NCBI RefSeq assembly: GCF_037126465.1 | Contig: NC_088201.1 | Location: 141,796,376 to 141,860,375, forward strand | Origin: Ornithodoros turicata | Taxonomy: Eukaryota; Arthropoda; Arachnida; Ixodida; Argasidae | Reading direction: 5' to 3' | DNA: 64,000 nt | Shown here: piece after piece, positions 11,902-34,982 of the stretch | How positions within the stretch are numbered: position 1 is the stretch's first letter | How the letters are laid out: the number at the start of each line of letters is the position of its first letter | Made by a program: the position numbers and the translations under genes | The notes under the pieces: generated by a model | The model's input: only the letters and a program-made list of their open reading frames with translations | What the model was told of the DNA's origin: nothing | The model's database searches: none

Positions 11902-11934
<33 letters not shown>
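11902..11934. repeat. (TA)n microsatellite, left border of the chain
   Basis: A pure AT dinucleotide run immediately abuts the first hammerhead-bearing repeat unit. Confidence 0.95.
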
Positions 11935-11936
<2 letters not shown>

Positions 11937-12047
11937 GAGGGGGGAAAAACCATTAAAGAAACAAGTAAATGACACTAGTCGTGTTTGAAATTCAAAATTA
12001 CAGATTAATATGGCTTCTATGGCTGCACGCAGAGAAACAGATACTCA

Positions 12048-12128
12048 TGGAACGATGCGACAGCACCAGAGGACACGTGTTTCGCCGTGTTTGCGGCTCG
12101 TCAGCCCTGGGTAGCTGCGAATCGTTCG
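12048..12128 (-). ncRNA. Hammerhead ribozyme with canonical core (outermost unit)
   Basis: On -, stem I (GAACGATTCGCAGC... paired with ...GCTG...ATCGTTCC) brackets the invariant CTGACGA at 12104-12098. This is followed by stem II GCCG/CGGC with loop CAAACA, GAAA, palindromic CACGTG, and the GTC cleavage triplet. Predicted cleavage lies between 12072 and 12071. It is the only unit of the array with U at core position 4, so it is the best candidate for an active ribozyme. Short open stem III implies action as a dimer, as reported for this ribozyme class. Confidence 0.8.
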
Positions 12129-12312
12129 GGATTGGCAAACCAGCGGCCACTCAGCGAGCGACATACACCTCGGAGGGTGACTGTGCACTCGTCAATGCCA
12201 CAGTGCAAGCCAGTGAATTATAATGAGGGGAAAAAGCCATTAAAGAAACAAGTAAATGAGACGACGTGTTTGAAATTCAAAATTACAGATTAATATGGCT
12301 TCTATGGCTGCA

Positions 12313-12413
12313 CGCAGAGAAACAGATACTCAGGGAACGATGCGGCAGCACCAGAGGACACGTGTTTCGCCGTGTTTGCGGCTCCTCGGCCCTGGGTAGC
12401 TGCGCATCGTTCC
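12313..12413 (-). ncRNA. Hammerhead-like fold, unit 2 (core position 4 changed)
   Basis: Same stems as the neighbouring unit, but the core reads CCGAGGA (12389-12383 on -), i.e. C replaces the invariant U4. Activity is expected to be reduced. Confidence 0.6.
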
Positions 12414-12696
12414 GAATTGGCAAACCAGGGGTCACTCAGCGAGCGGTATACACCTGGGAGGGTGACTGAGCACTCCTCAATGCCACAGTGCAAGCCAGTT
12501 TCTCTGCGTGCAGCCATAGAAGCCATGTTAATCTGTAAGTTTGAATTTCAAACACGTCTAGTATCATTTATTTGTTTCTTTAATGGCTTTTTTTCCCTGC
12601 ATTACAATTCACTGGCTTGCACTGTGGCATTGAGGAGTGCTCAGTCACCCTCCCAGGTGTATATCGCTCGCTGGGTGACCCCTGGTTTGCCAATTC

Positions 12697-12776
12697 GGAA
12701 CGATGCGCAGCTACCCAGGGCCGAGGAGCCGCAAACACGGCGAAACACGTGTCCTCTGGTGCTGCCGCATCGTTCC
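12697..12776 (+). ncRNA. Hammerhead-like fold, representative + unit
   Basis: Stem I pairs GGAACGATGC...GCAGC (12697-12711) with GCTGC...GCATCGTTCC (12761-12776). The core CCGAGGA is at 12721-12727, stem II GCCG/CGGC at 12728-12741, then GAAA, CACGTG and GTC, with cleavage predicted after 12753. Cores in other + units start at 13010, 13295, 13583, 13873, 14161, 14451, 14737, 15025, 15313, 15602 and 15891. All carry C at core position 4. The 14737 unit has CCGAAGA and a changed stem II loop. The 15313 unit has a mismatched stem II. The 15891 unit has lost 12 bases covering half of stem II and GAAA. Confidence 0.7.
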
Positions 12777-15700
12777 ATGAGTATCTGTTTCTCTGCGTGC
12801 AGCCATAGAAGCCATGTTAATCTGTAAGTTTGAATTTCAAACACGTCTAGTACCATTTATTTGTTTCTTTAATGGCTTTTTTTTCCTGCATTACAATTCA
12901 CTGGCTTGCACTGTGGCATTGAGGAGTGCTCTGTCACCCTCCCAGGTGTATATCGCTCGCTGAGTGACCCCTCGTTTGCCAATTCGGAACGATGCGCAGC
13001 TACCCAGGGCCGAGGAGCCGCAAACACGGCGAAACACGTGTCCTCTGGTGCTGCCGCATCGTTCCATGAGTATCTGTTTCTCTGCGTGCAGCCATAGAAG
13101 CCATGTTAATCTGTAAGTTTGAATTTCCAACACGACTAGTGTCATTTACTTGTTTCTTTAATGGCATTTTTTTCATTATAATTCAATGGCTTGCACTGTG
13201 GCATTGAGGAGTGCTCAGTCACCCTCCCAGGTGTATATCGCTCGCTGAGTGACCCCTGGTTTGCCAATTCGGAACGATGCGCAGCTACCCAGGGCCGAGG
13301 AGCCGCAAACACGGCGAAACACGTGTCCTCTGGTGCTGCCGCATCGTTCCATGAGTATCTGTTTCTCTGCGTGTAGCCATAGAAGCCATGTTAATCTGTA
13401 AGTGTGAATTTCAAACACGTCTAGTATCATTTATTTGTTTCTTTAATGGCTTTTTTCCCTGCATTACAATTCAGTGGCTTGCACTGTGGCATTGAGGAGT
13501 GCTCAGTCACCCTCCCAGGTGTATATCGCTCGCTGGGTGACCCCTGGTTTGCCAATTCGGAACGATGCGCAGCTACCCAGGGCCGAGGAGCCGCAAACAC
13601 GGCGAAACACGTGTCCTCTGGTGCTGCCGCATCGTTCCATGAGTATCTGTTTCTCTGCGTGCAGCCATAGAAGCCATGTTAATCTGTAAGTTTGAATTTC
13701 AAACACGTCTAGTACCATTTATTTGTTTCTTTAATGGCTTTTTTTTTCCTGCATTACAATTCACTGGCTTGCACTGTGGCATTGAGGAGTGCTCAGTCAC
13801 CCTCCCAGGTGTATATCGCTCGCTGAGTGACCCCTCGTTTGCCAATTCGGAACGATGCGCAGCTACCCAGGGCCGAGGAGCCGCAAACACGGCGAAACAC
13901 GTGTCCTCTGGTGCTGCCGCATCGTTCCATGAGTATCTGTTTGTCTGCGTGGAGCCATAGAAGCCATGTTAATCTGTAAGTTTGAATTTCAAACACGTCT
14001 AGTATCATTTATTTGTTTCTTTAATGGCTTTTTTTCCTGCATTACAATTCACTGGCTTGCACTGTGGCATTGAGGAGTGCTCAGTCACTCTCCCAGGTGT
14101 ATATCGCTCGCTGGGTGACCCCTGGTTTGCCAATTCGGAACGATGCGCAGCTACCCAGGGCCGAGGAGCCGCAAACACGGCGAAACACGTGTCCTCTGGT
14201 GCTGCCGCATCGTTCCATGAGTATCTGTTTCTCTGCGTGCAGCCATAGAAGCCATGTTAATCTGTAAGTTTGAATTTCAAACACGTCTAGTACCATTTAT
14301 TTGTTTCTTTAATGGCCTTTTTTTTCCTGCATTACAATTCACTGGCTTGCACTGTGGCATTGAGGAGTGCTCAGTCACCCTCCCAGGTGTATATCGCTCG
14401 CTGAGTGACCCCTGGTTTGCCAATTCGGAACGATGCGCAGCTACCCAGGGCCGAGGAGCCGCAAACACGGCGAAACACGTGTCCTCTGGTGCTGCCGCAT
14501 CGTTCCATGAGTATCTGTTTCTCTGCGTGCAGCCATAGAAGCCATGTTAATCTGTAAGTTTGAATTTCCAACACGACTAGTGTCATTTACTTGTTTCTTT
14601 AATGGCTTTTTTTTTCATTATAATTCAATGGCTTGCACTGTGGCATTGAGGAGTGCTCAGTCACCCTCCCAGGTGTATATCGCTCGCTGAGTGACCCCTG
14701 GTTTGCCAATTCGGAACGATGCGCAGCTACCCAGGGCCGAAGAGCCGCAAAGACGGCGAAACACGTGTCCTCTGGTGCTGCCGCATCGTTCCATGAGTAT
14801 CTGTTTGTCTGCGTGGAGCCATAGAAGCCATGTTAATCTGTAAGTTTGAATTTCAAACACGTCTAGTATCATTTATTTGTTTCTTTAATGGTTTTTTTTC
14901 CTGCATTACAATTCACTGGCTTGCACTGTGGCATTGAGGAGTGCTCAGTCACCCTCCCAGGTGTATATCGCTCGCTGGGTGACCCCTGGTTTGCCAATTC
15001 GGAACGATGCGCAGCTACCCAGGGCCGAGGAGCCGCAAACACGGCGAAACACGTGTCCTCTGGTGCTGCCGCATCGTTCCATGAGTATCTGTTTCTCTGC
15101 GTGTAGCCATAGAAGCCATGTTAATCTGTAAGTGTGAATTTCAAACACGTCTAGTATCATTTATTTGTTTCTTTAATGGCTTTTTTCCCTGCATTACAAT
15201 TCACTGGCTTGCACTGTGGCATTGAGGAGTGCTCAGTCACCCTCCCAGGTGTATATCGCTCGCTGGGTGACCCCTGGTTTGCCAATTCGGAACGATGCGC
15301 AGCTACCCAGGGCCGAGGACCCGCAAACACGGCGAAACACGTGTCCTCTGGTGCTGCCGCATCGTTCCATGAGTATCTGTTTCTCTGCGTGTAGCCATAG
15401 AAGCCATGTTAATCTGTAAGTGTGAATTTCAAACACGTCTAGTATCATTTATTTGTTTCTTTAATGGCTTTTTTTCCCTGCATTACAATTCACTGGCTTG
15501 CACTGTGGCATTGAGGAGTGCTCAGTCACCCTCCCAGGTGTATGTCGCTCGCTGAGTGACCCCTGGTTTGCCAATTCTGAACGATGCGCAGCTACCCAGG
15601 GCCGAGGAGCCGCAAACACGGCGAAACACGTGTCCTCTGGTGCTGCCGCATCGTTCCATGAGTATCGGTTTCTCTGCGTGCAGCCATAGAAGCCATGTTA

Positions 15701-16050
15701 ATCTATAAGTTTGAATTTCAAACACGTCTAGTATTATTTATTTGTTTCTTTCATGGCTTTCTTTTCCTGCATTACAATTCACTGGCTTGCACTGTGGCAT
15801 TGAGGAGTTCTCAGTCACCCTCCCAGGTATATATCGCTCGCTGAGTGACCCCTGGTTTGCCAATTCGGAACGATGCGCAGCTACCCAGGGCCGAGGAGCC
15901 GCAAACTCGTGTCCTCTGGTGCTGCCGCATCGTTCCATGAGTATCTGTTTCTCTGCGTGCAGCCATAGAAGCCATGTTAATCTGTAAGTTTGAATTTCAA
16001 ACACGTCTAGTATCATTTATTTGTTTCTTTAATGGCTTTTTTTCCTGCAT

Positions 16051-16071
16051 TATATATAGATATATATATAT
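16051..16071. repeat. (TA)n tract between array and PLE pair 1
   Basis: TATATATAGATATATATATAT directly joins the last satellite unit to the 3' side of the leftmost PLE. Confidence 0.9.
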
Positions 16072-16200
16072 GGTGAGGTAAAAGGAGTATCAAACGGCCA
16101 CGAAGTTTTACAGAAGTTCAAAAAAAGACGCGGAAACAGATTTTAGGGAAGTTAAAAACACTAGTTTATTACATGGGGAGACGTTAAAAAGAAAAATGGG

Positions 16201-16243
16201 CAAGGGGTCGACGTTTCGACAGTGGCACTGTCTTCGTCAGGAC
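16201..16243 (-). ncRNA. PLE family 1 hammerhead motif, left copy
   Basis: On -: GTC (stem I), CTGACGA at 16240-16234, an extra A, hairpin GACAGT-GCC-ACTGTC, GAAAC, then GTC followed by GAC closing stem I. The core is intact apart from the extra A before stem II. Stem III would be only ACGU, implying a dimeric form. Confidence 0.6.
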
Positions 16244-16515
16244 AAAAGATGCGTAGCTGATTACACATTTCTTAAATAGGTTTGCTACCTGACGTCATAA
16301 TCGGTACGGGCACGCCACAGGCGTTTGTCAGTGAGTCAGATTCGGGAATATTCCAGAAGGTCAAGTCCGGGTGGTGATGTCATTCGCCGTAGGTCACTGT
16401 CCGCTTTGGGGAAAATTCCGGGCAGGGTGAGCGCTGCTTCAAACTTTGCTGAAAAAAAAAAGAAAGAAAGAAAGAAAAACAGAAGGGAAACGAAAAAGAG
16501 GAATGTGTAGCTCAT

Positions 16516-18330
16516 CTAGGCGGCCAAATTTCTTACCGTTGAAAGTGCTCCCAGATCTTCGTTAATGGTTGATTGGAATTTGTAAATGAGATAAGATTCG
16601 CGTTGTTCCCTGCACCGATCTGAGCTAAAATTTGACTGGAGAATAAAAAGTGACACGTTATTTAGTGAATGACCTGGCTGTTTGAAATTCCGAGAGACCG
16701 GGAGGTTTGGCTTTTTGGTAACGTCAGATCGGTGGTTGTTGAACCTGATCCGAAATGATGTTTTAGTCTGACCTACGTATTGTGCTTGGCACATGCCGCA
16801 CTGAATGACATAAATGACGTTAGGTGAATTACAGTCGAAGTCACCATTAATTTTGACGGAAAAATTGGAATTAGTACTTTTAAGTACTTGGGTGCTTTGC
16901 ATTAATTTGCATATTTGACACCTTCGACCATCGCACGGGTGACAACCGTTTCCTGGATGCGCTGCTTTGCTAACTTTAGAGCTAACTAGATTATCGTGCA
17001 GGTTGCGCGCGCGCCTGTAGGTTACCCGCGGTGGCTGAGGGAAAATTTGTTCCATGCGCTCTGATTTGAGAAGGATACTATGATGACGGTTTAGTATATT
17101 GTTAACGCTTGGAATATTGCTGCTAAATGTTAAGATGAGGTTTACGGAACCATTATCTAACACGCGTTTGTGGTTTTCGAACAGGGATTTGCGATCTGCT
17201 TTGCGGGCTTTGTTTAGAGCGTCGTCAACTAAGCTAGGTGGAAATTGACGACCGATGAATGTTTCCCTAAGTTGAGCTAGATTTCTGTCCAAGTCATCGT
17301 CACTGGAACAGATTCGCCTGTATCGAAGTGCTTGGCTGTAAGGGATGGCAAGTTTAGTATGACGCGGGTGACAACTGTTAAATGCTAGATACTGTTGAGA
17401 GTCCGTAGGTTTACGTAACAGGTTTGTGGACAAGGCCCCGTTGGTTAACTTTACTTGGACATCGAGAAAGTTAACAGTTAAAGGGGAATAAGAATGAGTG
17501 AACTTGATGGCCGGATGTGCTTTGTTAAAGTCGCTGATAAATGTGATTAGGTCATCTTCTGAGTGTGGCCACACCATGAAGATGTCGTCGAGGAACCGTT
17601 TGTAAAGCGTGGGCTTCTTCAGGCGCTTAGACAGAAATTCTTCCTCTAGAGCTCCCATATATATATTTGCATAGTTAGGTGCCATTTTTGTACCCATAGC
17701 CGTGCCATGAACTTGCAGGTAGTGCTTACCGTCAAATTCGAAGTTGTTATTTTTCAGAATAAGATTGAGAAATGTGCATAGGACACAAGGATCGTATGAG
17801 GTATCAGAATATTTTGAAAATGCCCTTTCAGCTGCAGCAATGCCATCCTCGTGGGGGATGTTAGTATATAGAGAGGAAACGTCTAGCGTGACTAGCAAAC
17901 TGGAAGAAGGAGGCTGACATTCACTTAGAACTTGAAGAAAGTGATTGGTGTCCTTAATGTAGGATGGTAGTTTAGGAGGTATATCTTTAAGAAGGTGGTC
18001 AACAAAGCTTGAAATGTTCTCGGTAGCTGTACCGTTGCTTGAAACTATTGGGCGCCCTGGATTTCCAGGTTTATGGATTTTAGGGAGCATATAAAACCTG
18101 CCCGCTGCGGGGTCTTTGGGGAGTAGATAATCGTATAGGGTGGAATCTATCTTTTTACTTGCTTTTAGATCTTTTAGACTGCGGATAATATAAGCCGTAA
18201 TTTCCTCTGTAGGGTCAGCCTCGAGGAGTTTGTAGAACGATGCGCACGATAATTGCCGGATACCTTCGTTAATGTAGTTTTCTTTGTCCATTACTACGAT
18301 TGCACCACCTTTATCAGCTTTTTTAATGAC
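16516..18330 (-). pseudogene. PLE reverse transcriptase plus GIY-YIG endonuclease (left copy, C-terminal part)
   Basis: 591 residues are open from the internal Met at 18291, and coding continues to the SINE edge at 18330. RT motifs run in order: LPKIHKPGNPGRPIVSS, motif A LDVSSLYTNIPH, motif B GTAMGTKMAPNYAN, catalytic FLDDIFMVW, and the Penelope-typical KPTDSQQYLAFNSCHPRHT. A Cys-rich linker (CHPCDGRRCQICK) precedes the endonuclease: VIYVIQC and AQYVGQT supply the two halves of GIY-YIG, FRIRFNNH the Arg, and INED the Glu. The protein would copy RNA to DNA and cut the target. The frame itself has no stop, but a SINE splits it from its N-terminus and no 5' end is present. It differs from the right copy at about a dozen residues. 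Confidence 0.9.
18319..18330. repeat. SINE target-site duplication (left)
   Basis: TTTTTTAATGAC, repeated exactly at 18605-18616. Confidence 0.9.
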
Positions 18331-18604
18331 TGCTCAGTCGGTAGCGTGTTCGCCTTCTGATCCCGAGATCGCGGGTTCGAACCCGGCCGAGGACGCCAGC
18401 AACTTGGTGGCAGGGTACAAGTTGCTTAGACACGCCGTCTTCCGCGAGGGACGTTAAATACGGGGTGCCGTGTGATGAGCTTTCATTGCACGTTAAAGAA
18501 CCCTCAGGTGGGCAAAAGCAATCCACAGACCGACCGCTGTGGCGTCGCTCATGATCTCAGTTGTCTCGCGACGTAAACACCCAATTATTAAATTATTATT
18601 ATTA
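18331..18604 (+). mobile_element. tRNA-derived SINE inserted in the PLE ORF
   Basis: 274 bp flanked by a perfect 12-bp duplication. The 5' part is tRNA-like, with an A-box-like TGCTCAGTCGG at 18331 and a perfect B box GGTTCGAACCC at 18374-18384, giving an internal RNA polymerase III promoter. The body contains CACGTTAAAGAACCCTCAGG, which I recall as a motif of widespread invertebrate SINEs. The tail is ATT-rich. It carries no protein. It was inserted after this PLE copy formed, because the right copy lacks it. Confidence 0.85.
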
Positions 18605-19393
18605 TTTTTTAATGACTATGTCACTGCGGCTCCGAAGTTCAGAAAGGCTGCGCTGCTCAGCCCGCGTTAGATTTGGCTTCGATTTGCTGTTGTATGATTT
18701 ATTGTAAGCGTTAATGATATATTTTTGAACTGCACGGATGTACATGTCCAGAGCCTTTTCACGGTTAGCCTCTGGCGTAAAGTTGGATAGCGGTTTAAAT
18801 GGGTTGGAATCTGACTTAGGTTTGTCATGAAAGTATTCCTTCAGGCGTAGACGGCGGGCGAAATTATCTAAGTCCAGATAAAGTTGGTATTCATCTAGCT
18901 TGTTGTTACTGGGGCAGAATGAGAGACCACGGCTGAGTAGTGATATTTCCGAATCGGTAAGTTCGTGGGACGATAAATTAACGACGTTATGGGACTTCTG
19001 AGGTAGCATCTCTGCAGATGAGGCTGCTGGGGTGGGACCTGTTTTTCTAGCAAGCGGTTGACGATTTTGCGACGGCGTATTGGTTGTACCTGCATTACTT
19101 ATAAGATCACAGTCCTGAGCTGACACACTGGGTTCAAGCGTAGCTGGAGTATTAACGTTGTCCCTGACTAGCTTCCTCCGCTTAGCATTGCGAATTGCCT
19201 CCTCCCTTTCTTTTGCGTATTGTGCTAATTCTAACTGGTGGTTGTCTGTTAGAACAGATTTACAGTCGATAGTTTTCGCCTGCTGGGATGATTGGGCTAT
19301 GGCGTCCTCACAATGGGATATAAGGACTTCGATTAACGCGGCCGAAGCATTGTTGAGGATAAGTGGAATGAGATCCTCAACAAAAACTAACAT
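18605..19393 (-). pseudogene. PLE N-terminal coding region (left copy)
   Basis: About 260 residues. The segment with NLSSHELTDSEISLL, LSFCP and LDLDNFARRLRLKEYF is the conserved region upstream of the PLE RT and aligns with PLE family 3 at 32400-32570. The upstream NASAALIEVLISHCEDAI matches family 3 near 25950-26010. The frame is truncated at 19393 by the head-to-head junction and stopped in the SINE. Confidence 0.8.
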
Positions 19394-21149
19394 TAACGAA
19401 GGTATCCGGCAATTATCGTGCGCATCGTTCTACAAACTCCTCGAGGCTGACCCTACAGAGGAAATTACGGCTTATATTATCCGCAGTCTAAAAGATCTAA
19501 AAGCAAGTAAAAAGATAGATTCCACCCTATACGATTATCTACTCCCCAAAGACCCCGCAGCGGGCAGGTTTTATATGCTCCCTAAAATCCATAAACCTGG
19601 AAATCCAGGGCGCCCAATAGTTTCATGCAACGGTACAGCTACCGAGAACATTTCAAGCTTTGTTGACCACCTTCTTAAAGATATACCTCCTAAACTACCA
19701 TCCTACATTAAGGACACCAATCACTTTCTTCAAGTTCTAAGTGAATGTCAGCCTCCTTCTTCCAGTTTGCTAGTCAAGCTAGACGTTTCCTCTCTATATA
19801 CTAACATCCCCCACGAGGATGGCATTGCTGCAGCTGAAAGGGCATTTTCAAAATATTCTGATACCTCATACGATCCTTGTGTCCTATGCACATTTCTCAA
19901 TCTTATTCTGAAAAATAACAACTTCGAATTTGACGGTAAGCACTACCTGCAAGTTCATGGCACGGCTATGGGTACAAAAATGGCACCTAACTATGCAAAT
20001 ATATTTATGGGAGCTCTAGAGGAAGAATTTCTGTCTAAGCGCCTGAAGAAGCCCACGCTTTACAAACGGTTCCTCGACGACATCTTCATGGTGTGGCCAC
20101 ACTCAGAAGATGACCTAATCACATTTATCAGCGACTTTAACAAAGCACATCCGGCCATCAAGTTCACTCATTCTTATTCCCCTTTAACTGTTAACTTTCT
20201 CGATGTCCAAGTAAAGTTAACCAGCGGGGCCTTGTCCACAAACCTGTTCCGTAAACCTACGGACTCTCAACAGTATCTAGCATTTAACAGTTGTCACCCG
20301 CGTCATACTAAACTTGCCATCCCTTACAGCCAAGCACTTCGATACAGGCGAATCTGTTCCAGTGACGATGACTTGGACAGAAATCTAGCTCAACTTAGGG
20401 AAACATTCATCGGTCGTCAATTTCCACCTAGCTTAGCTGACGACGCTCTAAACAAAGCCCGCAAAGCAGATCGCAAATCCCTGTTCGAAAACCACAAACG
20501 CGTGTTAGATAATGGTTCCGTAAACCTCATCTTAACATTTAGCAGCAATATTCCAAGCGTTAACAATATACTAAACCGTCATCATAGTATCCTTCTCCAA
20601 TCAGAGCGCATGGGACAAATTTTCCCTCAGCCACCGCGGGTAACCTACAGGCGCGCGCGCAACCTGCACGATAATCTAGTTAGCTCTGAAGTTAGCAAAG
20701 CAGCGCATCCAGGAAACGGCTGTCACCCGTGCGATGGTCGAAGGTGTCAAATATGCAAATTAATGCAAAGCACCCAAGTACTTAAAAGTACTAATTCCAA
20801 TTTTTCCGTCAAAATTACTGGTGACTTCGACTGTAATTCATCTAACGTCATTTATGTCATTCAGTGCGGCATGTGCCAAGCACAATACGTAGGTCAGACT
20901 AAAACATCATTTCGGATCAGGTTCAACAACCACCGATCTGACGTTACCAAAAAGCCAAACCTCCCGGTCTCTCGCCATTTCAAACAGCCAGGTCATTCAC
21001 TAAATAACGTGTCACTTTTTATTCTCCAGTCAAATTTTAGCTCAGATCGGTGCAGGGAACAACGCGAATCTTATCTCATTTACAAATTCCAATCAACCAT
21101 TAACGAAGATCTGGGAGCACTTTCAACGGTAAGAAATTTGACCGCCTAG
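19394..21149 (+). pseudogene. PLE RT plus GIY-YIG endonuclease (right copy, 5'-truncated)
   Basis: It starts mid-ORF at NINEGIRQL, right at the junction with the left copy, and is open to the stop at 21147-21149. An in-frame run upstream of 19394 is antisense to the left copy and is not real protein. Motifs are as in the left copy: RT catalytic FLDDIFMVW, Cys linker, GIY-YIG halves VIYVIQC and AQYVGQT, and a terminal INED Glu. Thr before the motif A Asp is replaced by Lys here (LVKLDVSS). It lacks the N-terminal region, so it is probably not autonomous. Confidence 0.85.
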
Positions 21150-21424
21150 ATGAGCTACACATTCCTCCGTTTCGTTTTCCCTTCTGTTTTTCTTTCTTTC
21201 TTTCTTTTTTTTTTTTCAGCAAAGTTTGAAGCAGCGCTCACCCTGCCCGGAATTTTCCCCAAAGCGGACAGTGACCTACGGCGAATGACATCACCACCCG
21301 AACTTGACCTTCTGGAATATTCCCGAATCTGACTCACTGACAAACGCCTGTGGCGTGCCCGTACCGATTATGACGTCATGTAGCAAACCTATTTAAGAAA
21401 TGTGTAATCAGCTACGCATCTTTT

Positions 21425-21464
21425 GTCCTGACGAAGACAGTGCCACTGTCGAAACGTCGACCCC
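21425..21464 (+). ncRNA. PLE family 1 hammerhead motif, right copy
   Basis: GTC, CTGACGA at 21428-21434, one extra A, GACAGT-GCC-ACTGTC hairpin, GAAAC, GTC, GAC. Stem I is short (GTC/GAC) and stem III is the self-complementary ACGU. Hammerheads in PLE terminal regions are established in the literature. Confidence 0.6.
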
Positions 21465-21555
21465 TTGCCCATTTTTCTTTTTAACGTCTCCCCATGTAAT
21501 AAACTAGTGTTTTTAACTTCCTTAAAATCTGTTTCCGCGTCTTTTTTTGAACTTC

Positions 21556-21581: not shown

Positions 21582-21856
21582 GAAGAAATAAGTTCGCACA
21601 GAGCACCACCAAAGGAATATTTTCAGATGACTTCATTTAATTCATTTTGAAATTACACAGACACGACGTTTCGAACGGTGGACCGTTCTTTTTCAAGTGA
21701 AAAGATATAATGAGTTGGTCAAACAGAAAACACTCACTTTCGTGTGCTTCGACAGTGGTGGGGGAAGGGAAATCGCAGTGCGTTGAGGTTGCCGAAGGGA
21801 GGTCATAAATTCTGTGTGCGGGGTCCTGTCGAGTGTGTTTCGCACGTGGGTGGTTT

Positions 21857-21888
<32 letters not shown>

Positions 21889-22585
21889 CTAAGACGCATT
21901 TGTGTGGAAAGGACTCGTTTGCGTCTCGCTCTTGAATCCGGATTGTAATATGGCAATAGAGAGTTTCTCAATCGCATGTTCTGGAATGGCCATATGCCTA
22001 GACAGCGGGAGTTCCGGTTTTGTTTTGGTGTGGGACTTGTGGTTGTTGAAGCGAATTCTGAATGATGTGCAGGTTTGTCCAATGTATTGAGCTTGGCATA
22101 TGGTGCAATGTAGAAGGTATATTACGTTTTGAGTCCCACAGTCAAAACTGCCATTGATATGGAATTTGAAGCTTGTGGTAGTGCTGGTAACATCCCGTGC
22201 TGACAACATGAGGGAACAAATTTTGCAGCGGGGTTTTTTGCAAGGCCTGCAGCCAAGGAATTCTTTTTGTTCCCTCGTGACTTTTGAGTTCACCAGTACG
22301 TCCCGTAAGTTTCGCGGTCGTCTATAAACAATCTTGGGAGCCTCTGGGAAGACTTCCCGAAGATGTTCAGATTGGTGCAGAATATTGAGATAGCGTTTCA
22401 GAATGGATCCGATGCCAGCTACATTTTGATTGTAGGTTAAAGTTAAGCTCGGCGCGCAGTACTCATCGGTTTTTGAGGAAGCTGTGGGCTGGTTGGGACC
22501 TAAACGCCGAGCTTTTTCAATTGCGTCATTAACGACATCGGGAGGGTAGTTGCGATCGGCGAATGCGTGCCGTAGATCACCTAGG
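21582..22585 (-). mobile_element. PLE family 2, left copy (reverse), 5'-truncated
   Basis: Inverted partner of 22586-24342. On - it encodes the end of the RT region and the endonuclease (22569-21924). Compared with the right copy it has lost about 143 bp that encode the endonuclease C-terminus. The hammerhead-like stem at 21669-21705 retains GAAACGTCG but has a poor CUGANGA core. Confidence 0.8.
21924..22569 (-). pseudogene. PLE GIY-YIG endonuclease remnant (left copy)
   Basis: VIYLLHC and AQYIGQT (GIY-YIG halves), FRIRFNNH and the Cys linker CRPCKKPRCKIC are readable on -. The frame runs into UTR after GFKS because of the internal deletion, removing the C-terminal Glu block. Confidence 0.8.
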
Positions 22586-23910
22586 TTTTGCTGAAAGCCT
22601 ACACGAAATCACCGTCGGACAGTCCCTACCACGTGGACAGCGCCACACTGAAGGTACTATTGGAAATGATACTAACGCTGAACAACTTCGAATTTAATGG
22701 CCAACACTACGTCCAGATAAATGGCACAGCTATGGGCACAAAAATGGCCCCAAACTACACGAACACCTTCATGGGTAAATTGGAAACATGTTTTCTGTCG
22801 CGGTGCCACATCAGACCATTTCTCTATAAGAGGTATATCGATGACATATTCATAATCTGGGACAAGACTGAGAGTTCACTACTGGAATTCATTCGGGACT
22901 TCAACAACGCGCACCACAGCATTAATTTCACCCACCACTATTGGACCACAACTACGAACTTTCTGGACGTCACAGTAACAGTCAGTGACCAATCACTGGA
23001 AACTAAGGTGTACCGAAAACCAACTGACAGTCAGCAATACTTACACTTTAATAGCTCACACCCCCGTCACTGCAAACTCTCTCTACCTTATAGTCGAGCA
23101 TGCAGATACCGGCGTATCTGCACAGAGGACAGCGACCTCGAGCAAAACCTAGGTGATCTACGGCACGCATTCGCCGATCGCAACTACCCTCCCGATGTCG
23201 TTAATGACGCAATTGAAAAAGCTCGGCGTTTAGGTCCCAACCAGCCCACAGCTTCCTCAAAAACCGATGAGTACTGCGCGCCGCGCTTAACTTTAACCTA
23301 CAATCAAAATGTAGTTGGCATCGGATCCATTCTGAAACGTCATCTCAATATTCTGCACCAATCTGAACATCTTCGGGAAGTCTTCCCAGAGGCTCCCAAG
23401 ATTGTTTATAGACGACCGCGAAACTTACGGGACGTACTGGTGAACTCAAAAGTCACGAGGGAACAAAAAGAATTCCTTGGCTGCAGGCCTTGCAAAAAAC
23501 CCCGCTGCAAAATTTGTTCCCTCATGCTGTCAGCACGGGATGTTACCAGCACTACCACTAGCTTCAAATTCCATATCAATGGCAGTTTTGACTGTGGGAC
23601 TCAAAACGTAATATACCTTCTACATTGCACTATATGCCAAGCTCAATACATTGGACAAACCTGCACATCATTCAGAATTCGCTTCAACAACCACAAGTCC
23701 CACACCAAAACAAAACCGGAACTCCCGCTGTCTAGGCATATGGCCCTTCCAGAACATGCGATTGAGAAACTCTCTATTGCCATATTACAATCCGGATTCA
23801 AGAGCGATAGGGATCGTGAAATGAAGGAATCATTTTTAATACATAAATTCAATCCGGCACTAAACGAACACCCGGGATCGCTGTCCACTGTGAAAAACAT
23901 GAAGAAATAA
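22586..23910 (+). pseudogene. PLE RT (C-terminal part) plus GIY-YIG endonuclease, family 2
   Basis: About 440 residues without a stop. Present are motif B GTAMGTKMAPNY, catalytic YIDDIFIIW, KPTDSQQYLHFNSSHPRH, linker CRPCKKPRCKIC, and the endonuclease VIYLLHC / AQYIGQT / FRIRFNNH with a terminal LNEHPGSLSTV block in which the usual Glu-Asp is Glu-His. Motif A and everything upstream is missing, so this copy cannot be active. It is clearly a different family from PLE 1 and 3. Confidence 0.85.
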
Positions 23911-24340
23911 TAACGCCTACAACACAACAAGAAGCTACACCCGTTTACGCGACGCAAACGAGTCCTTTCCACACAAATGCGTCTTAGGGAAAGACCCCCC
24001 CCCCAAAAAAAAAACAAAGAAAAAAAACACCCACGTGCGAAACATACTCGACAGGACCCCGCACACAGAATTTATGACCTCCCTTCGGCAACCTCAACGC
24101 ACTGCGATTTCCCTTCCCCCACCACTGTCGAAGCACACGAAAGTGAGTGTTTTCTGTTTGACCAACTCATTATATCTTTTCACTTGAAAAAGAACGGTCC
24201 ACCGTTCGAAACGTCGTGTCTGTGTAATTTCAAAATGAATTAAATGAAGTCATCTGAAAATATTCCTTTGGTGGTGCTCTGTGCGAACTTATTTCTTCTG
24301 TGTATTAATACGGCGCCGTCTGAATCTTCAAGACCTTCAA

Positions 24341-24342
<2 letters not shown>
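22586..24342 (+). mobile_element. PLE family 2, right copy, 5'-truncated
   Basis: Begins mid-RT at the head-to-head junction. After the stop come a C/A-rich UTR, the stem-GAAACGTCG motif near 24180-24222, and a 3' end at TTATTTCTTC plus about 45 bp before the TA tract. Confidence 0.85.
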
Positions 24343-24383: not shown

Positions 24384-24384
<1 letters not shown>

Positions 24385-25373
24385 GCTACAAAATTTAGGT
24401 TCGAACGACCAGGATGTTGAATATAGATAGGGGAGAAGAGACACCAGAGACTGAAGTAGGGAGTAGGGGAAGTTATTTATTAAGCTGGCATTTAAACTAA
24501 GGGTCTGGGGAAGTCTACGTTTCGGCGGAAGCTCCGCCTTCTTCGGGACTGAGACGAAAATCTATGTACAAGGTCTTTTAAAAGGTTACAAAAGTGTCGT
24601 CACAGTTGGTACAATTCCACTGCGAGGCAGTCGTCAGTGAGTCATGTTCTGGAAGATTCCGGAAGGTTCCTGGGTCATCGGCCGGGGAGATTACGTGTCA
24701 GAGTCTTGGGTCGCGCTCGTTGAAAACCTGTTGTCCGGGGTGTTCTTAGAGTCATTGTGTCCAACTGTAAAGAAAAGAAGAAAAGAGGCAGCGGGCACTC
24801 CGAGGACATACAGAAAAAAAGTTATCCGGATATGCTTCTTACAGTTGATAGCACTCCTTTATCCTCATTTATTAGAGATTGGAATTTGTAGATCAAGTAC
24901 GATTCGCGTTGCTCTCTGCAGCGATCGGATGTGAAATTTGACTCTAAAATAAAAAGTGCGACGTTATTAATGGAATGGCCGGGTCGACTAAAATGGCGAG
25001 AAACCGGGAGGCTACCTTTTTTCGAAACATCTGATCGGTGGTTATTGAATCGAATCCTGAATGAATTTTTACTTTGACCTACATATTGCGCGGAGCATGT
25101 TGTACATTGAATGATATAAATAATGTTACTGGAGTTACAGTCAAAGTCGCCATTGATTTTAAGGGAGAAGTCGGAGTTTGTACTCTTGACCGCTGCCGTG
25201 CTTTGCATTGATTTGCATATTTGGCATCTTTTACCATTGCATGGATGGCATCCCGCTGTAGGTGTTAATGGTTTGGGAACTTTGGAGTTGACTAGTCTAT
25301 CTTGGAGGTTGCGGGCACGTCTGTAGGTAACTCGTGGCTTCTCGGCAAATATTTGTCGTGTCCGTTCAGATTG
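24384..25373 (-). mobile_element. PLE family 3, left copy (reverse), 5'-truncated
   Basis: From about 24418 it mirrors 34000-34985; the translated parts are identical, so the pair is recent or homogenised. The 24384-24417 strip next to the TA tract has no mirror. A hammerhead-like motif is at 24512-24548. Confidence 0.85.
24822..25370 (-). pseudogene. PLE GIY-YIG endonuclease (left copy, family 3)
   Basis: Partial ORF on -: linker CHPCNGKRCQICK, IIYIIQC, AQYVGQS, FRIRFNNH, and INED at the end. Its 128 C-terminal residues are identical to those of the right copy. Confidence 0.85.
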
Positions 25374-25723
25374 ACAGGCGCAGGGAGTTCCAGTGCAACC
25401 CCCGGGCGTTCGAATTTAATCGGCGACTGGTAAGGTTGTGCAGGAGCTCCCCGCACCTGTGTTACCTCGACCACGGCTTCCAACACCAACGCCCACCCCA
25501 CGTGCTAGCCGCGGACGGCCTCCACCCCAACTTCGAGGGCGTCCGACAGATCAGCGCTCATCTTCAGGACCTCGTCCCACGGCTCCTCCGACGACTGCCA
25601 CGACGACGACAGGACAACCCTGGAGTGCCGGATCCGGTGTGGCCTACACCACAGGAAGCAGACTCCCTCCTTCAACAACGGCAGCGACGAGGAGGCTGCA
25701 GCACCACATCGAAGCACGACTGA
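25374..25723 (+). pseudogene. SGNH/GDSL-like C-terminal fragment upstream of the PLE ORF
   Basis: The translation contains LAADGLHPNFEGVRQIS. DGLHP with downstream Gly resembles block V of SGNH hydrolases, where Asp and His act in catalysis. The preceding CYLDHGF also fits. Sequence is Pro/Arg-rich afterwards and stops at TGA 25721-25723. That stop is in the same frame as the PLE RT ORF that follows (25724 on), so the two could be ORF1 and ORF2 or one frame with a stop. The 5' part (with the catalytic Ser) is cut off by the head-to-head junction. Esterase-like ORFs are known in CR1 LINEs and in PLE-containing Terminons; membership of this one in the PLE is inferred from position. Confidence 0.5.
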
Positions 25724-26242
25724 CTAACCGCCGGTGAGCGTAAATTTTCCCAACGAAATAGCGACATAACTCCCGAGACTGAAGCGTTCTTTAGGCTCCG
25801 TCAAGTATGCGATAAGAAAATACGCTACAATTCTCACCGCGCCGCACTCAAACTTTACAAAGAGCAAGAAAAAACTCCTAGAGGGTTGACCATTAAAGTG
25901 AACCCGACATTCCCCCTCGATGATAGACTTTCCCGTCAGTGGAATAACATCGTTCAAAATGCCTCTACTGCGCTAATAGATGTATTAATCTCTCATTGCG
26001 ATGACTCTATTAACGAACTTTCTCGAGAAGCGAAAATCATCCACGATACGACGACATTATCCGACGCCCATCAAGAAGAATTGTCAAAATTTTGCAGGTC
26101 CCGTGAACAGCTCGTATCGAGAACTAAACACAAAAAGCTTGCCAGGGACGGAGTATGCTCACCTATTTTAGCTGAAAATAATGAAACGCCTCCAGAAAGT
26201 ATCTCGGTAAATAAACACCCGGTCACCTCTACTCAATTATTA
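25724..26242 (+). pseudogene. PLE family 3 N-terminal coding part, 5' of transposon A
   Basis: Open in the PLE frame from just after the TGA at 25723. It includes SRQWNNIVQNAS and LIDVLISHCDDSI, matching PLE family 1 near 19375-19300. The frame ends in transposon A, but codon 26240-26242 joins in phase to 32321 if the transposon and one TA are removed. First Met in frame is at 25886; the true start is unclear. Confidence 0.75.
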
Positions 26243-27402
26243 CACTCTCAGAAAGAAACCGGATAGTAAGGGTCAAAAATCGTCAAATTTTTGACCCATA
26301 TTCTAAGGGTCAACACCTTACGCATAAAAGTATGACGGATAGTAAGCGTAAAAAATCGTCAAATTTTTGACCCCTATTTTAAGCGGTGTTCGATGCCGGT
26401 TATTCTATGGGCTGTTTGGCTACTCTTGTGATACCGCTTACTGCACCTAAAAATACCACATAGTATGCATCAAACCTGAGCACCGTAGACATCACGTGAC
26501 CTCACGGTCCTTGTACAGACAACGGCTGCAATTCTGAAATGACCCGCAATGCGGTTTTCCGGCGGCTGTTCTGGAAAAGGGTATTTGGTTCCCGATTGCC
26601 AAAAGCATCAGAAAGAAGTTTCCAGAGCAGTAGACGGAAAATCGGATTGCCTGTCAATTTTGCATTGCAGCTATTGCCTGCCCAAGGGACGCTGACATCA
26701 CGCGGCGCCTAAGGTTCCCAGATATGATGCGTACTGTGAGGCATTCTGGGGGTGCAATTCTCTGTGCAAAGACGGCATACCATGCGAAATTGTTTCATAG
26801 GAAAAAAAGAACAGCTGCTACAACAGGATCTCGATGATACGAATCTCACAGGGCATGAAAAAAACAGTTGGTATCATCCGAGACTCGTCAGCAGTACCAT
26901 ATAGGTGCACGAAGCATGTATACGGACGGAAGCCGGTTCACTTTTATATGCTATCGCTTAAAATATATCCATGGTATAGGCATAGCTTGTTGCTCATCCA
27001 AAAGACTTGGCAATTGACAGTGCGCCACAATAGCTAGGCCCACTGCACAGCAAAATAGTATGACACAGACAAACCCATCCATCACGTGAATAACAGATAT
27101 AAAAGGCACGTTCTTGCGCAAGGCAAGCACGTTCTTGCACAAGGCAAGCAATATACAAGAGTTCTCGCGAGAGTCAAAAGAAAAATAAGAAGCACGAGTG
27201 CATCACTTGAACCGGGTTCATCGTCTCACTATAGCCCGCGTACGCCGCTATCTCATTTAAATCAGAACATCTGAATACATGGAAGTATTTCCCACAGCGT
27301 TAGTAGCACGCATTTAAACCGTAATGCAACAAAAATTCGAAAAATAATTCCACTTTATTGCAGGAAAGAGCCCAGAATAATAGATACATGCATGTGTGTA
27401 TA

Positions 27403-28299
27403 CAGGGTGTTTCAAAAAACGTGTCATTCGGACTTTATAAAAAAACGGGGCGACGGAAAAATACGGGGTAAACGGCGTTTGTCTGGCGGCTGAATTTGCC
27501 ATCTTTCAAAAATATTTTCATTTGATTTTAATTAAAAGAAATTGAATTTCTTTAATTGAACTTCAAAATTTCCCAAGTCAACCTAACGTTTTTTTTACAG
27601 AATTAGAGAGCCCGTAGTGAACTTAGTCAGATACACCAAGAAATTCGCTCGATATTGCAAATAGAACTGCCCCAAAAAAGTCCCGAAATTCAGGCTTCAG
27701 AGTTTCGGGTATTCAACGGCGCACAAAATCAGTCGCAAAGACGCGCGGAGAGCCTGACATGCTCCTGCCCCCACGAAGCTAGTACAATTTATCGCCGAAC
27801 CGGCGTGCAGCACAAGACGTGCCGATAACAAGGCGGTTGACATTCCACCATACGTTGATAAGCGGCAAACAAAAATGATTCCGCCTCTTTTTTCCCGCCC
27901 TCTTTTTTTTTCGACCTTCTATCTTTCATGGGGGCAGGAGCATGTGCTGCTCTCTACGCATCTTTGCGACTGACTTGGTGCGCCGTTGAATACCCGAAAC
28001 TTTGAAGCCTCAATTTCGGAAATTTTTTTGGGCACTTCCTTTCGCAATATCGAGCGGATTTCTTGGTGGATCTGACTACGTTCGCTACGGGCTCTCAAGT
28101 TCTGTAAAAAAAACGTTAGGTTGACTTGGGAAATTTTTGAGTTCAATTAAAGAAATTCAATTTATTTTAATTAAAATCAAATGAAAATATTTTTGCAAGA
28201 TGGCAAATTCAGTTGCCACACAAGTGCCGTTTACCTCGTATTTTTCCGTCGCCCCGTTTTTTTATAAAGTCCGAATGACACGTTTTTTGAAACACCCTG
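27403..28299. mobile_element. Foldback MITE 1 (CAGGGTG family), unique to copy A
   Basis: 897 bp, ends CAGGGTGTTTCA / TGAAACACCCTG, TA duplication at 27401-27402 and 28300-28301. Arms of several hundred bp are inverted copies. Copy B (near 44580) has the uninterrupted site GTTTATAGAATATTG, confirming the boundaries. Confidence 0.9.
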
Positions 28300-28642
28300 T
28301 AGAATATTGCACCTATGGCATGAAAATGGTGTGTCTTAAGGTGCACATGACCAAACATTAAAAAAATGGGAACAGCATACTAGCCATAAACCAACAGATT
28401 ACATCACCTGCAATATTTTAGAGAATTATGAAATGACATTTGTGCATCTTCACAACACTTCAACACAACAAAATATAAATTGTAGACTAGCTATATGAGC
28501 TAGTAATTGGATTAAATTACGTTTATAATGGAAAAACACTTAATGAGCGTTATATCACAGGATGAGCCATCGAGGTACACAGAATATCAGACATATACAA
28601 AAAGAAATTCATAGCAGACAGGTCATAAACTAATTATATATA

Positions 28643-30195
28643 GGGTGATTCCACGCCGGATCAGGCAGGATGGTCCGGTCGACCTCTTCAATTTTTTGTT
28701 TTTGTTTCAAACACATATTAAAGCCTTGGCCCTAGGAGGCATATGGGTGCTGAAAGTAGTTGAAAATAATTGGTGGGTATTTTTAATGAATTATCATTCA
28801 GATGTGAGCTTCCTACGCAGCTTGACGCCACGAATCTTCAAACTATTTGACATACTCAGCTTGTCACTTTCTTTTTCTTTTTTTTTTCACGTATTGTCTG
28901 GGGTGGGTAGCATTGAATCAAGTTGTGCAGATCCTAAGAGTTGCCTTCGAGGAGATAAAAAATCGAAAATTTGCCTCATATGTAAAATATGGTACGTTTT
29001 GGGAACCTCACAACTCGTCCCCCAGTTGTGATACCCGAAACTAATCTACATCATTGTGTTCGTCTCGAAATGCCCTTTCTTCGCATAGCGAGTACGTCGT
29101 ATTGTGAATTGGGGCAACGCCCCCAATAGGCTTTTTGTGAGGGATATCTACGGAAAATGCGTAAATTCGACACCGCGCATCCCATATATTCCTACTCGTA
29201 ACATCGTTCATTTTGCTCGCAAGCGTTCATCATGACTATTCTTAGTTGCCGTACCCCAGACTAAATGAGAATAGTTTAGGTGAGACATGAACAGTGAACG
29301 GTATAGTAGTAGCTTATTCGAAAAGGAAAGACGAGTCTATGCCTAGCGGTCATGCCTAATATTTTGCAGAGTTTATTCTGAACGTATTCAATGCGAACGT
29401 AGCGTGTCTCTCGTGTTTGTCCTCGTTCCTGTTTGGATGCATCGAAGGATCACGTATCAACCTGCCCATCTAGTAACGAACGTATTCAATGTGTTCATCC
29501 CATAGCAACTGTTCGTTAAAGATGACACTCAAGCATTTGATGCATTTTACAATATCAACAGGACTGTTAAGATATACTATCTCTTTATTTAGACTATCAC
29601 TCCTGTTTTTGGTCGAAATAGGATTGCTTCAGTTTTACTACTATTAATGCGTGAAGAGTTTAAATTAACCCATTTTTCCAAGTTGCAAAGCATCTCGTTA
29701 GCAGTAGTGGCTATTACATCAATATCAGAGCCACTGGAAAGCACGCTTGCATTGTCCGCATACGAAATAAATTCACAATTGACATCAATGTTAATTATGT
29801 CATTTAGATATCGGGTATCAGATCCGGGTATCTCAACTGGGAGCCGAGTTGTGAGGTTCCCAAAACGTACCATATTTTACAAATGAGGCAAATTTGCGAT
29901 TTTTTATCTCCTCAAAGGCAAACCTTAGGATCTTCACAACTTACAATGCGATGCCACCCACCCTAGACAATATGTAAAAAAAAAGTGTTAACTAGTTATG
30001 AAGATACGTGGCGTCAAACTGCGTAGGAAACGCAATGGTCGAAATGTCCACATCAGAATGATAATTCATTAAAATAGAACCACTGATAATTTTCAGCTAC
30101 TTTCAGCGCCAATATGCCTCCTAAGGACGAGGTTTTAATATATGTTTGAAAGAAAAAAAATTCACCACCGTGCATGATCCGGCGTGAAATCACCG
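28643..30195. mobile_element. Foldback element with captured LINE fragment
   Basis: Ends read GGTGATTCCACGCCGGATCA and, reversed, GGTGATTTCACGCCGGATCA, with TA at 28641-28642 and 30196-30197. Arms of about 400 bp pair (for example 28735-28830 with 30040-30130). Between them lies a LINE RT fragment on -. In copy B the same element is 44923-47387, enlarged by MITE 2. Confidence 0.8.
29160..29873 (-). pseudogene. LINE reverse transcriptase fragment inside the foldback element
   Basis: On -, YADNASVLSS at about 29760 aligns with the YADD box region (second Asp replaced by Asn). LCNLEKWVNLNSSRINSSKT follows, the usual sequence after the box in CR1/Jockey-type RTs. Beyond 29580 the frame degrades but continues as the RT C-terminal region (DEHIEYVR). 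Different family from the I-like LINEs at 1-8.6 kb. Confidence 0.75.
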
Positions 30196-30213
30196 TATAA
30201 TAACTGAAGTATA

Positions 30214-30424
30214 CAGGGTGTTCAAAATTAAGCTTTCACTAGCACTTTATAAATAGGCGAACAAAAGAAAACTGGCTGCTATTTTTCTGTTCCTTGAGTA
30301 AGAAACAGGTTCTACATAATTAGCACCAGCTGTTTCTTACACAAGTAGCGTAAAGTTATCATCCGGTTTCCTGTCATCGCTGTGTTTGCGTAGCGCTCGT
30401 GAAAGCTTAATTTTGAACACCCTA
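30214..30424. mobile_element. 211-bp MITE in copy A
   Basis: TIRs CAGGGTGTTCAAAATTAAGC and the inverted copy near 30400-30424; TA on both sides. Also in copy B at 47406-47614. Confidence 0.85.
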
Positions 30425-31792
30425 TAGTTCAGTGTATTGCAGACGTTGCATTTATCGAGCAATGCATCATTACTCATGAAGCAGTCACAACTTACAAGTC
30501 ATCTTTACAGGTGAGTTGTACTGGTTGTACATGCGTGAGGGAGTAGCGTCTTGTGTATTTCTTCCCAGAATGTGTCGCACAGTAGAAATTTTAGGAGCAC
30601 CACCTAACGCAGTTGAGGGTGCATGCGTGGTATTATGCAGTCCAGCATGGCTACGAAGAGCATGTCGTGTCCTGTTCCTTGGGATGCTGGACATAGAAGT
30701 TTATTGTCATGAGCGCAAAATAATGTGCTTGCTGATATTGTCAAATGGCTACTCATGTCCGTTGAACAGTAGATTCCAAAGATATGGTATTGCATTTCAA
30801 TGAGAAAGCTAATCTCGAAAATGTGCTAGCGTCATAATACGTGACGCAGATAAGGTCTTCTTCGCCAGACCTGGGTCATCTCCAGAGACCTCCCACATGA
30901 AATGGTCACAGGCTGGCAAACATAGCATTCTGAAATCTTTCTCATCCTTTAAGTAGCATTCAACTGAATTTTGTTAGACCCGTAAATTATTTTATCATGT
31001 TATTGATGTGATTTGTGGTACTGTCAAATGGGTGCACGTGTCTGTGCAGCAGTATATATGCCGGAACTGATACTGTTTCTAGCGTTTAAATGGGAAAGCT
31101 AATCTCGTAAATATGGTAACGCCGAAATAAATCATGCCGATGAGGTGCTCTTTGCCAGGCCTGAGTCCATCCCCGCAGAGGCCGCTTACATGAAATAGTC
31201 ATAAACGTAACATGGACTTCAAAAACCACTTACTATAACTGGAAACACTCTAGTCCTTTAAGATAACAGTTAACTGAATAATGTTAGACGCGTAACTCAT
31301 TTCAGCTGTCTAAGAAGTGGCGTTCCACACGTGTTTTGCAGCACCACCACAACCACCACCTGCACCACGTTATCGAAAATCGTGACCATCAGAAAATCGA
31401 TTTGTTTCATGCCAATACATCATGCTGCGGTATAATCAGCAATAATCATCCGAACTCCTATTACAAGAACGGATTGAGGAATCGTTAACAAAGATGCTTC
31501 AACGGGGAGAAACGCACATCCGAGAAAAACGAGAACAAAAAGAGTCTCACCTGGTGTACAATGGGCGTACGCATACGAATTTGTAGCGCGGAGATAGCCT
31601 GGAGAATCACAACTTTTCAAGTAGCGTCGTCCGCGTGCCTTGCCCACATATCGTGCGACGTTGTCTCGTTCGATGCCATCTCTTCCTGTGATACGTTTGA
31701 CACAAATGAAATATGAAATTAAAAAAACTACAGACACCCAGCGCAAAATGTGACAACTTACATTTGTTAGACCGTGCATGATGTGAGACCGT

Positions 31793-32080
31793 GAGACGCC
31801 AGAAGCCAGAGTGACCGTTAACGAAGCGAAAGAAAAGACGCTTTGCACACGGAACCATGCACGTGTTCTCAGAAGGCAGGGCCCGTATAACAATTGAAAA
31901 ACAATAAGCGTCAATATAAGCGTAAATGGATAATATGAGACGCCAGAAGCCAGAGTGACCGTTAACCAAGCGAAAGGAAGGACGCTTTCCACACGGAACC
32001 ATGCACGTGTTCTCAGAAGGCAGGGCCCGTATAACAATTGAAAAACAATATGCGTCAATATAGGCGTAAAGAGCTAATAC
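31793..32080. repeat. Two tandem copies of a 144-bp unit in transposon A
   Basis: GAGACGCCAGAAGCCAGAGT begins each unit (about 31793 and 31937). Both carry GCGTAAA-type words at the unit end. The same pair occurs in copy B at about 48977-49265. Confidence 0.85.
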
Positions 32081-32320
32081 TCCAACGCAGAGCTTCAGTT
32101 TATCCGTCAAGACGAAATCGTATGCGTCAGGATATAAGAGTAAATCATGTCCTCCGTCCCATTTACGCATAAAACTCCGCCCTTTACGCTTACAGCGAGC
32201 GCGTTTACGGTAAAACAGACCTTGACGGATACGGCGTCTGCGATTTTGTCGAACTTTACGCTTAGTAAGGGTAAGATTGGACGTAAGCGTAAATTTATCC
32301 GTTTCGTTTCTGAGAGTGTA

Positions 32321-34588: not shown

Positions 34589-34856
34589 CTTTTTTTCTGT
34601 ATGTCCTCGGAGTGCCCGCTGCCTCTTTTCTTCTTTTCTTTACAGTTGGACACAATGACTCTAAGAACACCCCGGACAACAGGTTTTCAACGAGCGCGAC
34701 CCAAGACTCTGACACGTAATCTCCCCGGCCGATGACCCAGGAACCTTCCGGAATCTTCCAGAACATGACTCACTGACGACTGCCTCGCAGTGGAATTGTA
34801 CCAACTGTGACGACACTTTTGTAACCTTTTAAAAGACCTTGTACATAGATTTTCGT

Positions 34857-34897: not shown

Positions 34898-34982
34898 TTC
34901 CCCAGACCCTTAGTTTAAATGCCAGCTTAATAAATAACTTCCCCTACTCCCTACTTCAGTCTCTGGTGTCTCTTCTCCCCTA

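Follow-up and report, generated by a model that had tools for sequence, protein, structure and literature searches.

A hammerhead repeat array in the tick Ornithodoros turicata as a probable retrozyme sharing an integration signature with Penelope-like elements

How does a small repeat that apparently encodes no protein spread through a genome, and which enzyme inserts it? This question is raised by a tandem array at positions 11935–16050 of a 64,000-nucleotide stretch of the Ornithodoros turicata genome (RefSeq assembly GCF_037126465.1, contig NC_088201.1, 141,796,376–141,860,375, forward strand; hereafter the window), which lies within an assembly of 1.07 Gb in 379 contigs. A first-pass annotation had described it as an animal retrozyme-like array of roughly 289-bp repeats, in which every unit formed a hammerhead ribozyme with a CUGANGA-like core, beside presumed Penelope-like element (PLE) helpers. 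From the genomic sequence we consider it likely that the array is a metazoan non-long-terminal-repeat (non-LTR) retrozyme, mobile through RNA and dependent for its insertion on a PLE's reverse transcriptase and GIY-YIG endonuclease, and the support for such mobilisation comes from a (TA)n target, head-to-head arms and two end positions that the repeat shares with PLE insertions.

Using Tandem Repeats Finder, two adjoining repeats were resolved, 11931–12499 (period 285) and 12498–16052 (period 288), and the array as a whole consists of two head-to-head blocks, the first two units being inverted relative to the rest with a junction near 12499 and (TA)n adjoining both outer ends. Its features are as follows.

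11902..11934, unstranded: (AT)n tract bordering the 3' end of the inverted block, on the insertion target side (tandem-repeat and tract scan)
11935..12499, minus: inverted block of the putative retrozyme, ~2.0 units, with the 3' end CATTA on (TA)n
12066–12110 (core CUGACGA) and 12351–12395 (core CCGAGGA), minus: hammerheads of the inverted block (RF00163)
12498..16050, plus: direct block of the putative retrozyme, ~12.4 units, 12 hammerhead footprints, all C4
12715..12759, plus: first plus-strand hammerhead, 45-nt Rfam match (RF00163)
13004, 13289, 13577, 13867, 14155, 14445, 15019 and 15596, plus: other plus-strand hammerheads above cut-off (RF00163)
near 14731 and 15307, plus: weaker hammerheads, below cut-off
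about 15880–15920, plus: hammerhead with a deletion, read by eye
16051..16071, unstranded: TATATATAGATATATATATAT tract bordering the direct block at its 3' end, shared with PLE A

The repeat length given by the first-pass annotation holds, with 11 complete cleavage-to-cleavage units of 285–290 bp. The ten plus-strand units are 93.8–99.3% identical to one another and the minus unit is 90.6–92.0% identical to these, and unit subtypes recur out of order along the array. GC content is 49.1% for the unit and 48.8% for the array, compared with <50% in the text and <45% in Figure 1 of the description of metazoan retrozymes (PMC7229834). Only one stop-to-stop frame of at least 150 amino acids occurs in the array, a 177-residue frame spanning the inverted junction, and among the open reading frames of the window none combining a reverse transcriptase with GIY-YIG lies within the repeat itself. 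The length of the target site duplication is masked, because (TA)n flanks both sides.

Covariance-model analysis of both strands placed the type I hammerhead RF00163 above the Rfam gathering cut-off at 11 of the 14 array sites (two minus, nine plus; E 7e-07 to 2.5e-05), with no matches in the same search of 14 control genomes. Two further plus-strand sites match only below cut-off, as RF02275, one of them with a broken basal stem II pair (anchor 15330) and the other with a changed loop (anchor 14754); in the 14th footprint, at about 15880–15920, a deletion has removed some of stem II and the core that follows. As the first-pass annotation had proposed, stem II GCCG/CGGC, GAAA and CACGTGTC are present in the array hammerheads, and cleavage is predicted after GTC, for example between 12753 and 12754. 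The core, however, is not CUGANGA-like: 13 of the 14 sites read CCGA(G/A)GA, in which U4 is replaced by C (U4C), the lone CUGACGA being the minus-strand site at 12066–12110. With this change and the damaged footprints, the claim that every unit is a canonical hammerhead was rejected. No separate loop closes stem III (ACAC/GUGU), and amphibian hammerheads whose helix III is short have been reported to act as dimers (PMC7229834). In a natural viroid carrying U4C, activity in vitro is considerably lower while infectivity is kept, according to Perreault et al. in the available part of PMC3088659. Full-strength self-processing of array transcripts to unit-length RNA is doubtful, because 13 of the 14 cores carry U4C.

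Using one unit as query we obtained 274 genome matches, with identity of at least 97% at several dozen places among the matches listed. Two sets of loci were read, both from this one genome and both biased by choice: a first set of 20 loci from the Rfam search plus 11 extensions, chosen by Rfam score, and a second set of 18 young loci (L040–L057), chosen by likeness to a window unit. All 18 young loci contain RF00163 above cut-off and have C4 as the majority base, with C at N7 in 11 and T in seven, and each of the 46 pattern-matched units in them has C4, an intact stem II and GAAACACGTGTC, with a G8 change as well in two. C4 is also found in L020, L025 and L035, and U4 in the long array L017/L032/L033 and in L022, L028, L034, L038 and L039. 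With C4 in all young loci and U4 in other relatives, U4C is not confined to the window locus and marks the recently spread lineage; the accompanying tree was poorly resolved and served for the core census only. Among the young loci no constraint on the hammerhead could be demonstrated (0.17 versus 0.15 off-consensus loci per position).

Individual inserts contain from about one unit up to three or more, and longer arrays also occur. Adjacent units within an insert differ by 1.06 per 100, compared with 1.90 for the closest copy at a different locus, and no other locus came as near in 11 of 29 unit comparisons. This identity within inserts gives weak and ambiguous hints of a circular RNA template, as it would fit a circle or a locally uniform tandem transcript and decides nothing between them; one locus, L045, is unlike a copy of one circle because its units differ by 3–7%. 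A related family with a 233-bp unit was also identified (alignment score 69, versus a maximum of 23 in 200 shuffles), with the core CUGAAGA in its array on contig 3.

The ends of these copies carry the main evidence. Numbering each unit from the nucleotide after predicted cleavage, we scored ends lying within 15 bp of (TA)4 or longer, having left out as non-independent L009–L016, L018, L023 and L027 (mutually aligned over 0.7 to 5.3 kb) and L001–L008 (overlapping or duplicate), and having dropped eight segments before the first-set count (six below 80% identity and two minor window matches). In the first set 30 of 47 3' ends and 5 of 47 5' ends lay near (TA)n (Fisher p 1.2e-7), such positions making up 0.9% of the first-set sequence; the values are 30/46 and 5/46 (p 9.7e-8) without L019, which is not part of the PIF/Harbinger-like transposon described below and whose 3' end lies off (TA)n and away from both of the sites defined next. 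Likewise, the second set gave 21 of 24 3' ends and 8 of 23 5' ends (p 2.8e-4; local background 8%). The 3' ends of the 289-bp family cluster at about 33 (GAGTATCT, site 1) and about 140 (CATTA, site 2), these two positions accounting for 18/22 in the first set and 21/24 in the second, and those of the 233-bp family at about 36 and 60–90 (19/24, or 19/25 with L019), the class limits having been set after seeing the data. Most of the clustered 3' ends sit directly on (TA)n, and the 5' ends are scattered. Across the genome the exact junction words occur 196 times for site 1 and 103 times for site 2, both exact-match minima, with no occurrence of the reversed words, which were the sole genome-wide control; the uninterrupted site-1 word occurs 1661 times.

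Copies often form head-to-head pairs between (TA)n tracts, with both 3' ends outward. Eighteen such pairs were read, 15 with both arms assignable, and in 13 of these 15 one arm ended at each site (binomial p 0.004), arms being assigned to sites by eye. Examining neighbours within 5 kb among 162 of the 299 junctions, the range listed completely for both sites, we found ten head-to-head pairs, nine of them asymmetric versus 47% expected (p 0.007), with one of the ten, L040, overlapping the first pair count. The same 162 junctions also contained five same-strand neighbours and two tail-to-tail neighbours, 21 and 25 bp apart across (TA)n. The 5' junctions of L043 and L054 show short fold-back palindromes inside the repeat, like those described for Penelope copies in the available text of PMC3846280. 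A stem-loop joining both start sites was also considered; it folds for the 289- and 233-bp units (-20.1 and -11.3 kcal/mol), but in four PLE tails the fold is not evident (-3.8 to -12.9), and it was set aside.

In the window the array opens a chain of (TA)n-delimited insertions running from 11902 to 38181, composed in order of the putative retrozyme, PLEs A, B and C, an element with terminal inverted repeats, PLE E, palindrome F, and a further hammerhead element.

16072..21555, unstranded: PLE A, head-to-head arms 98.9% identical, minus arm end 41 nt longer; hammerhead-like motif with core CUGACGA
21582..24342, unstranded: PLE B, head-to-head arms, plus arm end 44 nt longer
24384..34984, unstranded: PLE C, arms 100% identical over 953 bp, minus arm end 42 nt longer; hammerhead-like core CCGAAGA
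35953..37629, unstranded: PLE E, head-to-head arms, minus arm end 44 nt longer; assigned by DNA similarity
37645..37924, unstranded: PLE-type palindrome F, symmetric ends (95 and 98 nt); assigned by a hammerhead-like motif resembling that of PLE C
37925..38162, minus: further hammerhead element, RF00163 at 37981–38025, core UUGAUGA, 50 bp similar to the 289-bp unit; adjoins (TA)n at 38163–38181

An 814-residue stop-to-stop frame of PLE C (32144–34588) matches RVT_1 (1.6e-08) and GIY-YIG (2.1e-06) above the Pfam cut-offs. PLE A has RVT_1 above its cut-off and GIY-YIG below (21.5 bits, cut-off 22.6), and PLE B has RVT_1 below cut-off and no GIY-YIG match. All five window PLE insertions (A, B, C, E and F) combine a (TA)n target with head-to-head arms, and a one-arm tail of 41–44 nt is present in four of the five. 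A PLE-type pair in L020 has a 41-nt one-arm tail, and in the 233-family pairs of L020 and L024 the one-arm excess is 41 and 43 nt. Hammerhead-like motifs lie 83–97 nt (short end) or 127–138 nt (long end) before the ends of PLEs A, B, C and E; the Rfam search of the window did not report them, above or below cut-off, and by eye only the core of A is canonical, with CCGAAGA (U4C) in C and F. The suggestion of PLE helpers, which had rested on adjacency, thus gains support from a shared integration signature.

Target, polarity, the two end positions, asymmetry and inverted arms are all observed in the DNA; the enzyme, the RNA form and the role of cleavage we infer, and the following scheme would connect them. 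Tandem copies of the retrozyme would be transcribed and their multimeric or circular RNA taken up by a PLE protein, presumably the same enzyme that opens the (TA)n tract seen as target in the DNA. Reverse transcription would then be primed by both DNA ends, each at either of two set positions inside the RNA and usually a different one for each end, as is suggested by the two discrete and mostly asymmetric 3' end positions. The two cDNAs would end at differing 5' positions before being joined, which gives the head-to-head copies seen, and some loci may afterwards have grown into long satellites by DNA-level exchange, which is suggested because unit subtypes recur out of order. A precedent exists in PAc Poseidon, for which, in the available part of PMC11167929, AT-rich DNA is reported to be cleaved, both strands to be cut and extended, and reverse transcription to start internally; the tail of genomic copies is there the segment separating two start sites. 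Penelope copies typically lie head to head in AT-rich targets, with or without a tail, and in one case a host gene was carried in trans between pseudo-LTRs (pLTRs), as far as PMC3846280 was available.

Could the same structures arise without a PLE? If the array were ordinary satellite DNA with relic hammerheads, spread by unequal exchange or by re-inserted DNA circles with (TA)n tracts as recombination hot spots, the disordered unit subtypes of the window array, the existence of long homogeneous arrays and the 13 of 14 non-canonical cores would all be accommodated. Recombination of DNA does not, however, predict two discrete 3' ends with scattered 5' ends, the 3'-not-5' polarity on the tracts or the asymmetry of the head-to-head pairs, and we regard it as improbable. 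Twin priming by a reverse transcriptase of the long interspersed nuclear element (LINE) type also yields head-to-head copies, and LINE-like reverse transcriptase frames were recognised by eye at 1531–4310 of the window; yet the window PLE pairs share the (TA)n target, head-to-head arms and a 41–44-nt tail, with the 233-family pairs matching at 41 and 43 nt, and a LINE as inserter seems to us very improbable. The two 3' ends might, finally, arise simply where T/A-rich spots in the RNA pair with (TA)n DNA ends, whichever reverse transcriptase is at work, as both sites offer short T/A matches (GTATCT and CATTA). Yet the best (TA)n match of the unit, GTGTATATCGC, bears none of the 36 (TA)n-borne 3' ends of the 289-bp family (15 in the first set, 21 in the second), and the single end near it (L047) is not on (TA)n, which makes this explanation extremely improbable.

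Insertion by PLE machinery is nonetheless opposed by several observations. The window array pair is itself symmetric, with both arms ending at site 2, as is the L038 pair; three of the 18 head-to-head pairs have one arm elsewhere, and several arms called site 1 or site 2 are not directly on (TA)n. Two 289-family pairs have a one-arm excess of about 109 nt, not 41–44 nt, and (TA)n is absent from the ends of the large arrays of contig 3 and L017/L033. Among 21 intervals bounded by (TA)n tracts, 11 have a terminal inverted match and ten have none, including PLE A, in which a short inner (AT)n splits the element. For PAc Poseidon, start sites in vitro were alike on both strands in the available text of PMC11167929, and one-arm-each asymmetry is consequently not predicted by that work. 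The units also share no sequence with the window PLE region beyond chance-level matches of 12–19 nt, and this leaves PLE recognition of the retrozyme RNA unexplained; the feature common to units and PLEs is the hammerhead fold.

We infer insertion of the retrozyme by a PLE protein in spite of these points, and the core change then bears on what the hammerhead does. As the recently dispersed lineage carries U4C, either weak cleavage would suffice or cleavage would not be needed for insertion, and in PAc Poseidon hammerhead mutants left insertion unaffected in the portion of PMC11167929 available. A tentative and rather unlikely reading is that the hammerhead of this lineage acts for the PLE machinery as a docking fold which fixes both start sites of reverse transcription, its role as a cutter being secondary or absent; it is suggested because the dispersed retrozymes and two PLEs carry U4C, two more PLE motifs are non-canonical, and all have been inserted. 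Were this true, retrozymes would live as parasites on the PLE ribonucleoprotein, and their hammerhead would be retained because of its shape rather than how fast it cuts.

Previous work (PMC7229834, PMC7761336 and PMC11722881, the latter two seen in part) has already described animal retrozymes with their hammerheads and put forward PLEs as helpers. The array shares with the metazoan non-LTR retrozymes of Cervera and de la Pena (2020; PMC7229834) a type I hammerhead, small tandem and apparently non-coding units, dispersal and coexisting PLEs, so that the first-pass designation as animal retrozyme-like is supported, and its 285–290-bp units agree with the monomers of 150–450 bp, in dimers upward, given there. 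It differs in carrying U4C in 18 of 18 young loci as well as 13 of 14 array sites, the canonical catalytic core being treated here as typical of metazoan retrozymes and not as strictly defining, and in its (TA)n two-site head-to-head signature, which is not described in the text of PMC7229834. PLEs with GIY-YIG have in common with it an AT-rich target, head-to-head copies, an optional tail and a hammerhead motif near the end (available parts of PMC3846280 and PMC11167929), whereas the window repeat apparently encodes no protein and is proposed to be a client of PLE machinery, not a PLE. The hammerhead satellites of newt, schistosome and cave cricket, named in PMC7229834, likewise form arrays with one hammerhead per unit and a short helix III; dispersed short inserts with defined (TA)n ends would distinguish the window family. 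The U4C hammerhead of PMC3088659, in the part available, has the same core change, that viroid being an RNA replicon and the window family a dispersed genomic lineage.

Other repeats were noted alongside these. The 233-bp satellite on contig 3 (L029, L030) occupies 106824423–106837050, with RF00163 up to 50.9 bits and no (TA)n at the two ends read, and a piece 79% like the 233-bp unit lies at the right end of the window (63738–63998). L017, L032 and L033 form a 289-family array of >19 kb on a single strand, mostly with the U4 core, and L022 contains a further hammerhead tandem repeat at 4668–5704 (period 236, core CTGATGA). L009–L016, L018, L023 and L027 belong, by eye, to a PIF/Harbinger-like DNA transposon, present as numerous similar copies, with a captured piece of the 233-bp repeat (RF00163 up to 48.3 bits), and an apparent tRNA-derived short interspersed nuclear element, also recognised by eye, lies within a 233-family pair at about 2511–2787 in L020. 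Within the window, an element at 35013–35932 with terminal inverted repeats, mariner-like by eye, sits inside (TA)n between two PLE insertions, and a 144-bp unit in ~2 tandem copies occurs at 31792–32070, just upstream of the PLE C frame, and at 48981–49267. Scanning collections of viral contigs and genome contigs for the core word of the unit gave no occurrence in either.

In two 2020 papers PLEs were named a strong or likely candidate for the mobiliser of retrozymes (PMC7229834; PMC7761336, available in part), because both have hammerheads, tandem copies and co-occurrence, and a 2024 review names LINEs or PLEs (PMC11722881, in its available part). The literature searched, mostly without subscription papers and in part as partial texts, contained no report of a (TA)n two-site retrozyme signature or of a tick retrozyme. 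At about 300 exact-match ends the insertion junctions of this family resemble PLE insertions, in (TA)n tracts that PLEs also use, and the signature thereby provides genomic evidence on the retrozyme mobiliser that goes beyond the earlier argument from co-occurrence. It also opens the way to testing in vitro, with the target defined and the start sites predicted, and it allows two ideas that are usually merged, the presence of a hammerhead and the need of cutting for mobility, to be separated.

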